Of a stretch of DNA of 64,000 bases, positions 1 to 6,332 are shown piece after piece (positions within the stretch are counted from its first letter, which is position 1; every line of letters begins with the position of its first letter). Origin of the DNA: Vulcanimicrobiota bacterium. Lineage in GTDB: Bacteria; Vulcanimicrobiota; Xenobia; Xenobiales; JADMJV01. The notes beneath the pieces are model-generated. The model was not told the origin of the DNA, ran no database searches, and saw nothing but the letters and a program-made list of their open reading frames with translations. The stretch lies in the NCBI GenBank assembly GCA_019637395.1, contig JAHBVR010000015.1, positions 1-64,000 on the forward strand, in the 5' to 3' direction. A program made the translations under genes and the position numbers.

Positions 1-1
1 T

Positions 2-826
2 ACCCACAACGAATTCGGCATCCCGGAGACCACCACCGGCTCCGGCAGCCTGCGCGCCCACACCTACGTGGGTGGTGCCGGCGTGCGCAACGAGACGGCC
101 TTCTCCGGCCTCTACTACATGAGACAAAGATGGTATGACCCCACCCTCGGACGCTTCCTGCGACAGGATCCGGTTGGATTCGCTGGTGGACTCAACTGGT
201 ATACATATGTTGGCCAAAATCCCGCCACCTGGGTGGACCCGAATGGTTTAGACCGGGTGAAGTTTTTAAGTGGGAAGTATAAGGGATACTTCGGTGGCGG
301 GGTCCAATTCAATGAGAACTACGTGAACACCAAGATCCGCCCCAACTTCGAGAAAAAGGGGCACACGTTCTCTTTGTGCCAAGGAGTTGACCGATTCGGT
401 TTAATAAACTCGCTTTACGACAACGATGTGGTCTACGTTTCTACGCATGGTGCGATTAACGCCAACGGCATAGCAGGGTGGGATCTTGGTCCAAATAAGA
501 CGACTGATGTCGTGCGAAGTGACGATCGAGATTTGCCTGGTTCTGGCGGCTTTGGATACAGTCCCTTTCGGGCAAAGCTCGTAATCGCTGGTTCTTGCGA
601 AGTTGGACAGACAGATGCTTTAGCTAAGTCACTCGGCATAAACTCTAAGTCTAACGCGGCTTTTGTCGGGTGGGATCGGAGTATTGATGCCGGTGTCTCG
701 GATCGAGCAATCCAGTCACTATTCGACCAATTACTCCAGGGAAAAACGATTGGAGAGGCAGTAGATTCGGTCGGGAATCCGAATCTAAAGCTCTATGGAA
801 ACAGCAATGTTCGGCTCGAACCCTAG
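2..826 (+). CDS. RHS-repeat protein C-terminus with caspase-like toxin tip (5' partial)
   Basis: The reading frame is open from the left edge, so the N-terminus is missing. The first ~80 codons are the classical RHS core end: a GLYYMRQRWYDPTLGRF-type motif, then QDPVGF and a DPNGL signature at about 233-250, the usual junction where the polymorphic toxin tip begins. The remaining ~190 residues are clearly AT-richer than the core. The tip contains a VSTHG motif (His codon 446-448) and an AGSCEVG motif (Cys codon 596-598), followed by an LLQGKTIGEAV helix. This His/Cys layout is typical of caspase-fold (CHAT/C14-like) peptidases. Known: RHS proteins carry variable C-terminal effectors. Inferred: the tip is a protease toxin. 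The RHS assignment is firm; the caspase-like call is moderate. Confidence 0.8.
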   Translation, partial: THNEFGIPETTTGSGSLRAHTYVGGAGVRNETAFSGLYYMRQRWYDPTLGRFLRQDPVGFAGGLNWYTYVGQNPATWVDPNGLDRVKFLSGKYKGYFGGGVQFNENYVNTKIRPNFEKKGHTFSLCQGVDRFGLINSLYDNDVVYVSTHGAINANGIAGWDLGPNKTTDVVRSDDRDLPGSGGFGYSPFRAKLVIAGSCEVGQTDALAKSLGINSKSNAAFVGWDRSIDAGVSDRAIQSLFDQLLQGKTIGEAVDSVGNPNLKLYGNSNVRLEP

Positions 827-1223
827 TCTCGATGGCCCAAACGGTCTAGGCAGTTCATTTTCAAAAGCTAGCCCAGTTAACTGGAAGGCTAGGCTTGCTC
901 TACCAACTGGCTGTTACTTAATATCGTTAGCGGCGACGGCAACAGTCCCATTACTACTCAACAGTACAAGAGCTTTCGACTATTCAGGCTTCATGGTGCG
1001 ACAATCGCCTTTGGTCGAGATCTCCAATGCGGTTGTGTGGTGGATTCATCTTAGAGCAGGTCTTTCGGTTCTACTGCTCACCGTGGTGTGGTTCTTGGCA
1101 GCCTTTCTGTCTCGTAGAGATGGAGTCGCGACCCCCAGGACCGTTTGTTGGCTGTTTTTCGCCTATTCAGCCACAGTGGTGCTATCTGTCGCCTGTATCT
1201 CCAGGATGTACACCGCCGGGTGA
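795..1223 (+). CDS. Small three-TM membrane protein, candidate immunity protein
   Basis: 142 residues, starting inside the last codons of the RHS gene (32-nt overlap), which suggests translational coupling; no strong ribosome binding site is visible. Three hydrophobic stretches are seen at about residues 34-55, 79-105 and 117-136, with short polar loops between them, so it is probably an inner-membrane protein. I do not recognise the family. Immunity genes of RHS toxins usually lie immediately downstream of the toxin tip and share its base composition, and this gene meets both conditions. Function is inferred from position only. A membrane immunity protein would fit a toxin that acts at or outside the inner membrane. 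Confidence 0.6.
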   Translation: METAMFGSNPSLDGPNGLGSSFSKASPVNWKARLALPTGCYLISLAATATVPLLLNSTRAFDYSGFMVRQSPLVEISNAVVWWIHLRAGLSVLLLTVVWFLAAFLSRRDGVATPRTVCWLFFAYSATVVLSVACISRMYTAG

Positions 1224-1280
1224 GGATTGGAGCCTCCGGAGTCCCGTGAAAAGTTGCCTGCGTGGTTGGTAGCTTTCTTT

Positions 1281-1299
1281 CGCCGGCCTCAGGCCGGCG
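1281..1299. repeat. Perfect inverted repeat (8-bp stem, TCA loop)
   Basis: CGCCGGCC at 1281-1288 pairs with GGCCGGCG at 1292-1299 around a 3-nt loop. No T-run follows on either strand, so it is not a clear intrinsic terminator. It is the first of several hairpins between the candidate immunity gene and the degraded intron. Confidence 0.8.
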
Positions 1300-1369
1300 G
1301 GTCTCGTGCCTGGGGTCAGGCTTTATTCTCGGGATGAGGCTCCGCCTTGGTTGTACGGAAGTCTCTGTT

Positions 1370-1405
1370 CCAAGGCCTGCGCTCTCGATAGAGCGCAGGC
1401 CTTGG
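1370..1405. repeat. Perfect 16-bp inverted repeat with CGAT loop
   Basis: The arm at 1370-1385 is exactly complementary to 1390-1405, with a 4-nt loop at 1386-1389. This is the strongest hairpin in the region. It lacks a downstream T-tract on either strand. A second, smaller hairpin (GCACC at 1411-1415 with GGTGC at 1421-1425) follows directly. Confidence 0.9.
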
Positions 1406-1513
1406 GCAGGGCACCTTCGGGGTGCGGCCCCACCCCTTCTGTCTTTCAGCCGGCACCCAATCTCTGTTCCCGAGCCGAGGAGGCGCCCCCTGTTGCCAGG
1501 GGGAACCTCTCAC

Positions 1514-1545
1514 AGAACCGGACTTGTGGGCCGCACATCCGGCTC
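1514..1545 (-). ncRNA. Group II intron domain V
   Basis: Read on the minus strand the segment begins GAGCCGGA and ends TCCGGTTCT. The two ends pair, with an AG bulge and a distal helix (TGTG with CACA) between. The GAGC start, carrying the AGC catalytic triad, and the GGTTCT end match the bacterial domain V consensus as I remember it. It sits ~15 nt downstream of the maturase stop, the canonical place. The RNA element looks intact although the protein is broken. Confidence 0.7.
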
Positions 1546-1559
1546 TTCAGAATGATTTC

Positions 1560-2600
1560 TCATAGGCCTAGCAGCAGTTGGCCCGAGACCGGTTCCGTAA
1601 CTGGAATATGGGCAGCTTTCCACATGGTCCACAAACAGGTGAGCTTTCCCGTAAACCATTTGGTCGGGTAGGCCCGCTGAAGGGCTGGCAGATTGCTTTT
1701 CACCCAGATGCCATGATTGCCAAAAGCTGCTCGTGCGGCGGTGTCCTTGCTCACTCCCATTTTCATGAGGTGCTTGAACAAAGTCTCCGGTCGCTTTTGC
1801 TGCTTTATAATGATGGCCCGAATCCTGCGGCGCAGATGTGCACCCAAGCCGAAGAAATCGTTTGCTCCCCACTTGGTGCAAAGCCTGAATGATTTTTGCC
1901 CGAATCCGCTGTTTACTGCGACTGGATAGGAGGATTTCGGTGCGCCCCGACTTTCTCGACCGCATCAGAGAGAATCCCAGTATGTGGACCTGTTTAGACA
2001 GCGCCACCACGGTTTTCTCCTCATTCACCTTCAATCTGAGTCTTTGCTCGATGAAACGAGTCAGGCTTTCCCTTACTCGGGCGCCCGCCCGTTCACTTCG
2101 AACGAAGACATTCACGTCGTCGGCATATCTGACGAAATCGAGGTTTCGCCGCTTCAATTCCCTGTCGAGTTCGTCCAGGACGATGTTTGACAGGAGCGGG
2201 GATAGTGGGCCCCTTGCGGCGTGCCTTCGTCCGTTTGTACACGCGTTCCGTCCGGTAGGACTACTTTGGCTTTTAGCATCCTGTGAATCAGGTTAAGAAC
2301 TCGCCCGTCCTTCACGCGCCGACCCACTCGGGCCAGAAGTCTTTGATGATTTACTCTGTCAAAGAACTGGAAGAGGTCAATGCTAACGAGCCATTCTTTA
2401 CCGTCATTCACCAGTTTAGAAGCCTCTTGGATAGCCGTTTGGGCGCCCCGTTGCGGACGGAATCCGTGGCTACTCGGGTGGAAATCAGGCTCGAACATGG
2501 GAAACAACTTTTGGTGAACCGCCTGCTGCACCCATCTGTCCAAGATCATCAACGCTCCAGCTCGAGACTACTGAGATTCTCGAGCTGTGCTAAGCCCAGG
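1560..2600 (-). pseudogene. Group II intron reverse transcriptase/maturase, frameshifted and internally deleted
   Basis: RT motifs occur in three pieces. Piece one (2154-2552) carries SHGFRP, a SIDLFQFFD catalytic block and EGTPQG. At about 2210 a single-base deletion in a G-run breaks the frame: restoring one G joins TPQG to PLSPLLSN and on to FVRYADD in the second piece (to about 1845). The second piece then loses the frame again, and the maturase end (LGAHLRRRIRAI, then KRPETLFKHL, 1560-1850) continues in the original frame. Roughly 100 residues usually found between thumb and maturase domain are missing. Upstream of 2552 a TAG closes the frame, so RT0/RT1 are absent. The gene is clearly dead. 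Confidence 0.85.
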
Positions 2601-2740
2601 CCTTCTATCGTCAATAGTTTGCAAGCTTTTGACTTTGGATGCACCGACGGCTGCCAACTGCAGGCCGGCGGTGGGAGCCGGTTGATTCACGGCCACCTTT
2701 AGCCATCACCCCACCTCTTTGAGAGCCATCAGGGCTGGGA

Positions 2741-2890
2741 AATCTCTGTTCCCGGCAGCGCGCCCCGGTAGAGGGCGCCGCTATCGGGGCACTCAACCAT
2801 CGCCTGGATTCTTGCGGCCAGGCTTTTTCTTTCCACCTCACCACCGATCGGCATAAAATACACTACGACCTGAGGAACGAACGAATGCCA
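2741..2890. other. Intergenic remnant with GC-rich hairpin
   Basis: No credible gene lies between the reverse transcriptase remnant and the phosphatase-fold gene. The stretch contains a second copy of the 13-bp repeat (2741-2753) directly followed by an imperfect hairpin (AGCG/CGCT and GCCC/GGGC arms, about 2757-2782), resembling the arrangement at 1459. It may be decayed intron or exon-flank sequence. Confidence 0.4.
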
Positions 2891-2891
2891 C

Positions 2892-3320
2892 CTAGCTGCG
2901 CGCGTGACGCTCCAGATACTCCGATAAAAGCTTTCTCAGCTCCGCCCGATTGGCCACTTCAGGGCATTTCTCCAGGGCTTTCTCGAGAGGCCATTGTTCG
3001 ACGCGGGCGACGTGCTGGAGAATCACGAGGGCGGCGCGTTCGCCGCCGGCCGACATGACCACTACCGGCGACTGGCCGCGCAGGAACTCGCGGCGCAGCA
3101 TGTCCATGTCTTGCTCGGACCAGCTTCTGGCGGTGATGGGGAGGGAGACACGGGTGATGCCTTTATCCTTGAGGTTCTCGGGAAGCTTCTCGATCTCGTT
3201 GACCTTGCGCAGGTCGACCACCAATTTGCTCTCGGGGGTTTCTTGTTGGACGGCCTCGTCCAGCCATTTACTGTCGCAGGCCAGGATTTCCAGGCCGCGG
3301 CATTCAAGTTTTAAACGCAC
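2892..3320 (-). CDS. Protein tyrosine phosphatase-fold protein with degenerate P-loop
   Basis: 142 residues, last gene of the minus-strand operon and 1 nt from the stop of the TPR gene upstream. The layout (VVDLRKVNEIEKLP, then GITRVSLPI, then an R-rich loop and helices) resembles the DUF442/beta-lactamase-hydrolase-like phosphatases of the dual-specificity fold. The P-loop region, VVVMSAGGERAA at residues 86-97, aligns with the family VxxHCRSGTRSA, but the catalytic cysteine position is Ser or Met. The arginine (R95) is kept. If the alignment is right it is a pseudophosphatase that could still bind phosphate. The family call is from motif memory; no function is assigned. Confidence 0.6.
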   Translation of the reverse strand: MRLKLECRGLEILACDSKWLDEAVQQETPESKLVVDLRKVNEIEKLPENLKDKGITRVSLPITARSWSEQDMDMLRREFLRGQSPVVVMSAGGERAALVILQHVARVEQWPLEKALEKCPEVANRAELRKLLSEYLERHARS

Positions 3321-3321
3321 T

Positions 3322-5325
3322 TCAGGGCTCCCTCGGGTGATCGTCGGGCTTGGTTGAACCTGGGAAGAACATCTCCTGCATCTGCTTGCTTTGCACCGTG
3401 CCGGTGACCACGCCGTCCAGGCTGCCGATGTCTTCTTGAGAGAGGTCGATCTTGACGGCGAAGAAGCGCTCGTGCAGGGCCGCGCACAGCTGGGCGGCCG
3501 GGGTCACGCCTTTCTCCGGCTTGCCCAATTCGGAAACCCGCAGCACACTGTTATCCGGTCCCAGCAGACTGGCCTGGGCGGCTTTGACCTGAATCTTGAA
3601 GCCGCCTTCCTGTTCGCTAAAGCGGGGAGAGTGGCGGCACATCTCCACTACCTCGTTGGCCACCGCCGAGCCGTCACTGGCGTAGCTGACCGGCAGCTCG
3701 ATCTCCAAACTGCGCATCAGCCCCGGACCATCCTCCATCACGTGCTGCAACAGCGGCAGGGCCCTGGCCAGGTCACCGCGATTCAGATAGATCTTGGCGG
3801 CCCGGGCCTGCACCCGCACCGCCAGCAGGCGCTCGGAGGCGGGCAGTTCCTTGAGCACCTGCTCCATGCTGGCCAATGCCTCGTCCGTGCGCCCGGCCCG
3901 GGCCATGGCTTCGAAACGAATCGCGTTAAGATAGGGGCGCTCCAATTCCAGAGTCTCGAAATTCTTGGATTCCAACTGGTCGAGGGCGGCCAGCGTGGTG
4001 CCCGGGCCCAGCAGGGTGGGCAACTCCATGCGGACGTAGTTGGGGATGAGCACCGTGCCCGGCGCGTAGGTATAGCGCAGGCAGCTCATAATACGACCGT
4101 GCGACACAATGATAGAAGCCGCTTGCTGGCCCTTGACATAGGCCTGCCAGGCCAGGTCGCGCTGCTTCCAGAGCAGTTGCCACCACTTCAGTCCCTTGCT
4201 CCAGCACATTTCCTCGCGCATGGAGTTACGCCGTGCATTGGCCGCCTCGCGGAAGATAATCATGTTGGCGGCTTCCCACTGGTCGCGCTGCACCGAGTCT
4301 CCGCCCTTGCGATCCGGCCGATCGACAAAGGCGTTGGCCAGTTCAAAAGCGCGCTCGGTCATACCCAATTGCAGCATCAACTCGCAGGCCAACTGCTGAT
4401 TGGCCGCCCAGGTCTGCTGCGCCAGGTAGGCCTCGGAATCATGGGTCCACTGGTTGCATTTTTTCAGCGCCGAAGCGGCCTCCGCGTAACGGGCCTGGCT
4501 GAGATAAAGGGTGGAAAGGTCCCACCAGGGGTTGGAAAAGGATTTCGGATCAAAATAATCGGTGGATTCCAAAAACAGCTTCTCGGCCTGGTCAAAGCGC
4601 AGCAGGCAGGCCGAGGCTTCGCCGGCGTTGCGCAGGTAGACCACGCTCTGTTTCCAGCCGTGGCGGCGCACCTGGGCCAGCAATTCCTGGAAAGCCTGGC
4701 TGCCCTTGGCCAGATGGTCGGTCTCCATTTCCAGGGCGCCCAACGAATTCAAAGCCTGCACCACGGTGGCTTCGTCGAAGGGAGCTTCTTCCAGAGCTTT
4801 CTTCAGCTTTTCGCGGGCTTCTGATTCGCGGCCCAGCTTCATCAGCGGCCAACTGTAGAAGGCCTGAATCAAGGGCAAGTGGGTGCCGTAGCGATGGAAG
4901 AGCAGATCATCCAATCTATCCCAGGTCTTGATCTGGTCTTCATACTGGTCCATTTCACCGGAAACCTGGCCTTGCTCCAGCAAGGCCTTCTGCAGCCAAC
5001 CCCAGGGGGCGCTACGTCCGGGCGGGTTGCCATACTCTTTGGCGAACTTTTGAATGCACTGGTCCAGATACCAGTGAGCTCGCGGCAAGTCCCCCTCCCC
5101 GTTGTGGAGCACGCAGCCCATAAAATAGTAAGTGGAGATTTTATCCTTGGTTTTGGGGTCTTCCAGCATTTTCTGGGCCAGCTCGCGCAGAGCCACCCAT
5201 TTACCATCCTCGATATTGCTCAAAGCCAATTGCTCGTTGATGGTCAGCGGGCCCAAATCCTGAGCCACCGCCGCCACTCCCAGCAGCAGGCTGAGGCCGA
5301 TGGCTGCCAAAAGCCGGCGTATCAT
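3322..5325 (-). CDS. Secreted/periplasmic TPR protein
   Basis: 667 residues with an N-terminal signal peptide (MIRRLLAAIGLSLLLG, cleavage expected after AVAQ at ~22). The rest is helical with scattered TPR-like pairs (for example YFMGCVLHNGEGDLPRAHWYLD near residue 70, FDQAEKLFLES near 245, and ARAAKIYLNRGDLARALPL near 510). Its ATG overlaps the MoxR stop by 4 nt (ATGA), so it is translationally coupled to that gene. TPR proteins are common partners of MoxR/DUF58 clusters, where they are thought to scaffold assembly of envelope complexes. The exact role is unknown. Confidence 0.75.
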   Translation of the reverse strand: MIRRLLAAIGLSLLLGVAAVAQDLGPLTINEQLALSNIEDGKWVALRELAQKMLEDPKTKDKISTYYFMGCVLHNGEGDLPRAHWYLDQCIQKFAKEYGNPPGRSAPWGWLQKALLEQGQVSGEMDQYEDQIKTWDRLDDLLFHRYGTHLPLIQAFYSWPLMKLGRESEAREKLKKALEEAPFDEATVVQALNSLGALEMETDHLAKGSQAFQELLAQVRRHGWKQSVVYLRNAGEASACLLRFDQAEKLFLESTDYFDPKSFSNPWWDLSTLYLSQARYAEAASALKKCNQWTHDSEAYLAQQTWAANQQLACELMLQLGMTERAFELANAFVDRPDRKGGDSVQRDQWEAANMIIFREAANARRNSMREEMCWSKGLKWWQLLWKQRDLAWQAYVKGQQAASIIVSHGRIMSCLRYTYAPGTVLIPNYVRMELPTLLGPGTTLAALDQLESKNFETLELERPYLNAIRFEAMARAGRTDEALASMEQVLKELPASERLLAVRVQARAAKIYLNRGDLARALPLLQHVMEDGPGLMRSLEIELPVSYASDGSAVANEVVEMCRHSPRFSEQEGGFKIQVKAAQASLLGPDNSVLRVSELGKPEKGVTPAAQLCAALHERFFAVKIDLSQEDIGSLDGVVTGTVQSKQMQEMFFPGSTKPDDHPREP

Positions 5326-6332
5326 TTCATGGTGGACCGAGCCAATGATTCCATCGGTCCTTTCAAGCAGCGTTTGACCACTTCGTGGACGTCCTCGACG
5401 CCGGGAGCCAGTTCCAGGCGATGACCGAAGACGTGAGGAGCCAAACCGGTCACGTCCTCGGGAATGACGAAGTCGCGCCCTTTCATAAAAGCCAGAGCCT
5501 GCAGGGCCGGCAACAGCAGCACCAGGCTGCGGGTGGACACGCCCTGCACCACCTCGGATGACTTGCGCAACGAAGTGGCCACTTCCACCAGCGAATCGCT
5601 CAGACGCGGATCGATGTAAACGTGCTCATCAATGATGCGCCGCGCCTCCACCAGCGCGTCGCGGGTCACGCGCGGAGCGTTGGCCGGAGCGGCCGCGCGG
5701 CGGTCCCGGTAGGAGCGCAGCACGTCGCGTTCGGCGCTCTGCTCGATATAGTCCATGCGGATTTTGAAGAGGAATCGGTCCAATTGGGCCACCGGCAACG
5801 GGTAGGTGCCCACCTGGTCGCGCGGGTTCTGGGTGGCGATCACGAAAAATAGATCGTCGAGGCGATAGGTATGGTTATCCACGGTAACCTGCTTCTCGGC
5901 CATGGCTTCTAAGAGCGCGGATTGAACCTTCGGGGAAGTCCGATTGATCTCGTCGGCCAGCAGCACATGCGCAAAAATCGGGCCGGGCCGGAAATGGAAC
6001 TGCTGACTTTCCGGGTCGAAGACAGAAACGCCGGTGACGTCGGAGGGCAGCAAGTCGGGCGTAAACTGGACCCGGCGAAAGGGTTCGATGTGGTCGGCGT
6101 TATGCCGGTCCTCGATCGACTCGCCCAGAGCCTTGGCCAGAGTGGTTTTGCCCGAGCCCGGGTGATCTTCGAGCAGCACGTGACCGTCGGCCAGCAAGGC
6201 AATGAGAATTAAGTCGATGACTTCGTCGCGACCGCGCACGGCGAAAGTCAGGCGCGCCTTCAGTTGCTGAACCACCGTTTGGGCGTGGCCGAGCAGCTCC
6301 TGACGGGCGCTGGCGGATATGGCTGAACTCAC
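5322..6332 (-). CDS. MoxR-family AAA+ ATPase
   Basis: 336 residues from a GTG at 6332 preceded by AGGAAGG with 9-nt spacing; an in-frame extension further upstream has no family match and overlaps the transglutaminase gene. Walker A is DHPGSGKT at ~56-63, Walker B is LLADEINRT near 125, and sensor 1 is FVIATQNP; AQLDRFLFK follows. Typical MoxR length is about 330. MoxR ATPases act as chaperones for metal-cofactor or envelope complexes and usually neighbour DUF58 and transglutaminase proteins, exactly as here. It overlaps the downstream TPR start (ATGA) and overlaps nothing upstream with this start. High confidence in family, low in substrate. Confidence 0.95.
   Translation of the reverse strand: MSSAISASARQELLGHAQTVVQQLKARLTFAVRGRDEVIDLILIALLADGHVLLEDHPGSGKTTLAKALGESIEDRHNADHIEPFRRVQFTPDLLPSDVTGVSVFDPESQQFHFRPGPIFAHVLLADEINRTSPKVQSALLEAMAEKQVTVDNHTYRLDDLFFVIATQNPRDQVGTYPLPVAQLDRFLFKIRMDYIEQSAERDVLRSYRDRRAAAPANAPRVTRDALVEARRIIDEHVYIDPRLSDSLVEVATSLRKSSEVVQGVSTRSLVLLLPALQALAFMKGRDFVIPEDVTGLAPHVFGHRLELAPGVEDVHEVVKRCLKGPMESLARSTMK

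Follow-up and report, generated by a model that had tools for sequence, protein, structure and literature searches.

A CHAT-like, caspase-type tip on an RHS protein of Vulcanimicrobiota: a predicted peptidase toxin

Caspase-like tips of polymorphic toxins

Caspase-like domains of polymorphic toxins have been catalogued by Zhang et al. 2012 (PMC3482391), whose 'Tox-Caspase' entry lists the residues H and C, an association with RHS repeats and a C-terminal position. According to this survey, a caspase-like domain that comes last in the protein is the toxin, whereas an internal one is thought to be a release protease. Although predicted since 2012, caspase-like RHS tips have been little studied, and in the literature searched the term Tox-Caspase occurs only in this prediction. 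The CHAT peptidases (Pfam PF12770), among them the SAVED-CHAT protein 8tl0, TPR-CHAT/Craspase and separase, are the second point of reference; known CHATs reside in TPR, STAND or SAVED signalling proteins.

The stretch of DNA analysed here (the window, 64,000 nucleotides) opens with the end of an RHS gene whose C-terminal tip, referred to below as the C7 tip after its contig, can be likened to both. As in Tox-Caspase, a caspase-like domain with H and C forms the final domain of an RHS protein and is predicted to be toxic by proteolysis; the tip extends from the RHS junction to the stop codon, in agreement with the architectural definition of Tox-Caspase, and the likeness is one of architecture and description. 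The differences are threefold: the immunity partner of Tox-Caspase is Imm36, whereas that of the C7 tip is a putative one, a membrane ORF with three helices; the Eremiobacterota/Vulcanimicrobiota are absent from the published Tox-Caspase list; and no sequence relative of the C7 tip was found in the collections searched. The tip matches a profile of CHAT domains, its His and Cys aligned with theirs, and its low-confidence models have their best fold matches among these peptidases, but it is a short RHS tip (about 190 amino acids) that falls under the Pfam threshold. The original prediction regarded caspase-like RHS tips as uncommon, which is fair, but they are not new, since Tox-Caspase had already been described (Zhang et al. 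2012, PMC3482391). Judged by its sequence, the C7 tip is a new, divergent example among the caspase-like RHS tips already catalogued. The locus is a compact candidate that lends itself to testing, with a clear predicted catalytic pair and remote relatives within one genus; if active, it would present a CHAT-type protease as an interbacterial weapon, with the immunity protein in the membrane.

The end of the RHS gene and its AT-rich cassette

Positions 2-826 of the plus strand are an open frame of 274 codons that constitutes the 3′ end of an RHS gene. Its 5′ part is missing because the contig (C7 of genome G000), whose base 1 is the start of the window, begins inside the gene. An NCBIfam profile search places TIGR03696 (Rhs_assc_core) on amino acids 33-83 with an E-value of 5.7e-20, terminating at DPNGL; this C-terminal part of the RHS-associated core (95-250, plus strand) covers positions 25-76 of the 76 in the model, with the DPNGL motif (DPNGLD, about position 250) at its end. 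The CHAT/caspase-like tip of 191 amino acids follows on the same strand (251-823), and its CHAT-like domain is succeeded by just a few residues and the stop codon. The genome holds 16 RHS core matches, and the tips vary between the RHS copies.

An overlapping ORF of 142 amino acids (795-1223, plus strand; possible second start at ATG 807) lies downstream and is the putative immunity partner, with three membrane helices predicted by hydropathy. It matches no Pfam or NCBIfam family, and a search of the phylum retrieved the ORF itself and two weak matches (E 0.002-0.003).

The GC content is 0.604 both in positions 1-250 and in the whole window, compared with 0.495 in 251-826 and 0.513 in the next ORF; third-position GC drops from 0.71 to 0.52. 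A shift to AT-richer DNA past DPNGL had been ascribed to the tip; the shift itself is borne out, but the AT-rich stretch extends beyond the tip over the ORF that comes next, to around position 1200, after which GC climbs again. The drop at the junction, the low values through the next ORF and the subsequent rise therefore point to a tip-plus-partner cassette. Just 3′ of this cassette, the minus strand carries remains of a reverse transcriptase (RVT_1, 1510-2552), broken up over at least two frames; positions 1-6000 of the window gave no Rfam match, and the remains perhaps derive from a group II intron.

Evidence for a CHAT-type fold

The predicted catalytic histidine (446-448, plus strand) and cysteine (596-598, plus strand) are residues 72 and 122 of the translated segment window:233-823, 50 residues apart, and each closes a hydrophobic strand. 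A strict version of this pattern, namely a hydrophobic strand followed by H and a small residue, then 30-90 amino acids, then a hydrophobic strand followed by a small residue and C, occurs in 0.09% of shuffled tips. VSTHG, AGSCEVG 50 residues further on and LLQGKTIGEAV are all present where the original prediction had placed them. Its residue numbers, H127 and C177, rest on a GTG at position 68, where the gene does not actually begin, and are replaced here by H72 and C122 of window:233-823. The C-terminal helices around RAIQSLFDQLLQGKTIGEAVDSVG (700-772, plus strand) resemble the helix pair that comes after the Cys strand in CHAT domains, both in the secondary structure of the models and in the CHAT alignment.

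Conventional searches do not assign the C7 tip to a family. By sequence it has no match in Pfam, NCBIfam or the PDB; Pfam reports nothing even at E 10, and the tip is therefore called CHAT-like rather than a member of Pfam CHAT. No homologue was found among genome contigs, viral contigs, plasmids or phages, in 149 genomes of the phylum, or in 388 relatives. A weak match in genome G387 (E 0.002), interrupted by an internal stop, was taken as chance. PDB profile searches with tip alignments likewise returned chance matches only.

The relationship emerges from profiles built on CHAT domains themselves. Genome G000 encodes five full CHAT proteins, and their domains and four others, from two distant genomes and with E-values of 6e-7 to 2e-33 against Pfam CHAT, were combined into a nine-CHAT profile. 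The C7 tip scores 14.5 bits against this profile, which was the fourth tried and was built after the four outside CHATs had surfaced; none of 60,000 shuffles scores as high (best 11.5), nor does any of 695 real ORF pieces; second is a CHAT-like RHS tip on contig C2. In the alignment, H72 and C122 coincide with the His and Cys of the CHAT catalytic pair. An earlier profile made of the five G000 CHATs only gave a borderline score of 4.8 bits, which was reached by 2 of 5000 shuffles, and a profile of three sister tips alone (see below) did not separate the C7 tip from shuffles (444 of 5000). The tip is thus told apart from shuffles only by profiles that contain CHATs.

The original prediction had proposed a comparison of structure models with CHAT and caspase folds. 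Such models can be compared, and their best matches lie mainly within peptidase clan CD, but confidence is low: single-sequence AlphaFold2 models have a pLDDT of about 42 and an unfolded N-terminal half. The C-terminal half is modelled as strand-Cys-helix-strand-helix-helix-strand. In a Foldseek search of the PDB, the SAVED-CHAT filament 8tl0 ranks first with a probability of 0.91, and further matches include drICE, legumain, caspase-8 and MALT1. The best VIA-align rows are separase and SAVED-CHAT with Z of 4.6-5.2, where about 5 is weak on the program's own scale and unrelated folds are listed too; legumain, caspases including caspase-1, and MALT1 come next. For two models, the majority of the top VIA-align rows belong to clan CD peptidases; these models were made from nearly identical input sequences and are not mutually independent. 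Overall, the caspase/CHAT layout envisaged at the outset finds support in the nine-CHAT profile, which aligns His and Cys with those of CHAT, and in the single-sequence models that match mainly clan CD.

Sister tips, partner proteins and the proposed function

Three further tips in the genus are related to CHAT. Two belong to the same genome, on C2 (319972-320487) and C15 (124-681), and are homologous to each other (BLASTP 3e-7). The third, from a sister species (G138, C272:8782-9333), is a homologue of both. The C2 tip reaches E 0.009 against Pfam CHAT, under the cut-off, and a profile of the three retrieves Pfam-confirmed CHAT proteins of an unrelated genome with E-values down to 1e-7. Like the C7 tip, the sister tips are CHAT-related RHS C-termini, of 170-190 amino acids, with H, a spacer, GC and a final LxxGxSVQE helix; unlike it, they have HN, HT or HH in place of HG and partners with signal-like N-termini. 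They are homologous among themselves, whereas kinship with the C7 tip is not demonstrable by pairwise methods, and hhalign found no link between the C7 tip and any of the three. In the nine-CHAT ranking of RHS tips, C7 (14.5 bits) is followed by C2 (13.6), G138 (3.5) and C15 (3.2), with all others below zero; the ranking is partly circular for C2, C15 and G138, whose profile found the four outside CHATs, but not for C7. Because these four rank at the top, CHAT-like tips appear, on sequence grounds, to be a recurring class of RHS tips in the genus.

The C2 tip is part of a second RHS core-plus-tip piece of 532 amino acids (C2:319972-322752), located directly 3′ of a 1615-amino-acid RHS gene, the arrangement of an orphan RHS tip cassette. 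Another tip of the genome, on contig C21 (L016:985-1515, minus strand; DKGHGNCG...INFRGCATAD), looks caspase-like by eye and was considered as a CHAT-like candidate, but it scores -2.6 bits against CHAT and shows no link to the three sister tips in hhalign; it may be another type of enzyme.

It is probable, in our estimation, that the C7 tip is a compact cysteine peptidase domain of the caspase-like CHAT type, carried as a polymorphic toxin by an RHS shell; we infer proteolysis and toxicity, as well as the immunity role of the ORF at 795-1223. The RHS shell would bring the tip to a competing cell, or into it, and there His72 and Cys122 of the delivered domain may cleave one or more target proteins, while the overlapping membrane ORF would shield the producer. 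The tip is placed as a toxin rather than as a release protease because the domain is the last of the protein (Zhang et al., PMC3482391).

An alternative reading accepts the caspase fold and has the domain process, and thereby release, its own RHS protein. In polymorphic toxins, caspase-like domains are indeed for the most part releasing peptidases (Zhang et al. 2012, PMC3482391), but these lie upstream of another toxin domain, whereas only a few residues and a stop codon follow the C7 domain; moreover, its position in an AT-rich cassette with a downstream ORF of its own is the layout of a toxin-immunity module, and we regard self-processing as unlikely. Quite unlikely, too, is a tip that keeps the caspase-like fold without being a protease in practice, being either degenerate or active through binding or pore formation, with a membrane partner that would point to a membrane-active toxin: the three predicted helices of the partner would suit such a toxin, but the tip retains both predicted catalytic residues as well as the HG motif, and its sequence has no evident membrane segment. 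Least probable of all is an unrelated fold with coincidental motifs, which would be in keeping with the lack of a family match at standard thresholds and the low-confidence models, but is opposed by a CHAT profile score beyond that of 60,000 shuffles and by structure matches concentrated mainly in one peptidase clan.

If the C7 tip is a peptidase toxin, the cell envelope would be its most likely site of action, because the partners of CHAT-like tips in the genus are predicted to be exported or membrane-bound. The C2, C15 and G138 tips each have a partner that opens with a hydrophobic, signal-like segment. Exported or membrane partners accompany 5/5 caspase-like tips (including the C21 tip, assigned by motif only) and 5/18 other tips (p 0.007), or 4/4 without the C21 tip (p 0.017), in a comparison with small counts, groups set after seeing the data and locations assigned by hydropathy and by eye. 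For these reasons the location of the partners hints at envelope action but does not demonstrate it. We therefore entertain only tentatively, as a possibility with less than even prospects, that the genus runs divergent CHAT-type RHS protease tips that act in the envelope of the target, each with an immunity protein that is exported or resides in the membrane. If true, a fold of signalling and defence would have been turned into an envelope-targeting toxin cassette.

Some partner ORFs resemble one another across different tips. Three of them (L012, L014 and L029) are alike by eye, with a signal-like N-terminus followed by a start like 'GMTSRQVVGKLGK', and recall SmpA/BamE-type proteins. Such partners accompany differing tips, for example a lysozyme-like tip on C22, and possibly represent a shared immunity scaffold.

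Finally, four similar clusters link RHS genes in the genus to a maturase. Three lie in G000, on C22 (3937-12500), C5 (108000-124700) and C32 (76000-84500), and the fourth on C187 of G138. In each, a radical SAM/SPASM maturase is followed by a short Gly-rich ORF that contains some Cys and then by the RHS gene; on C22, C5 and C187, one or more Gly-rich, tail-fibre-like genes were seen upstream. The literature searched on RHS toxins together with radical SAM maturases yielded nothing related. The maturase is related to the PapB/SCIFF ranthipeptide maturases, and a RiPP-type modification may be tied to the RHS toxins in these clusters.
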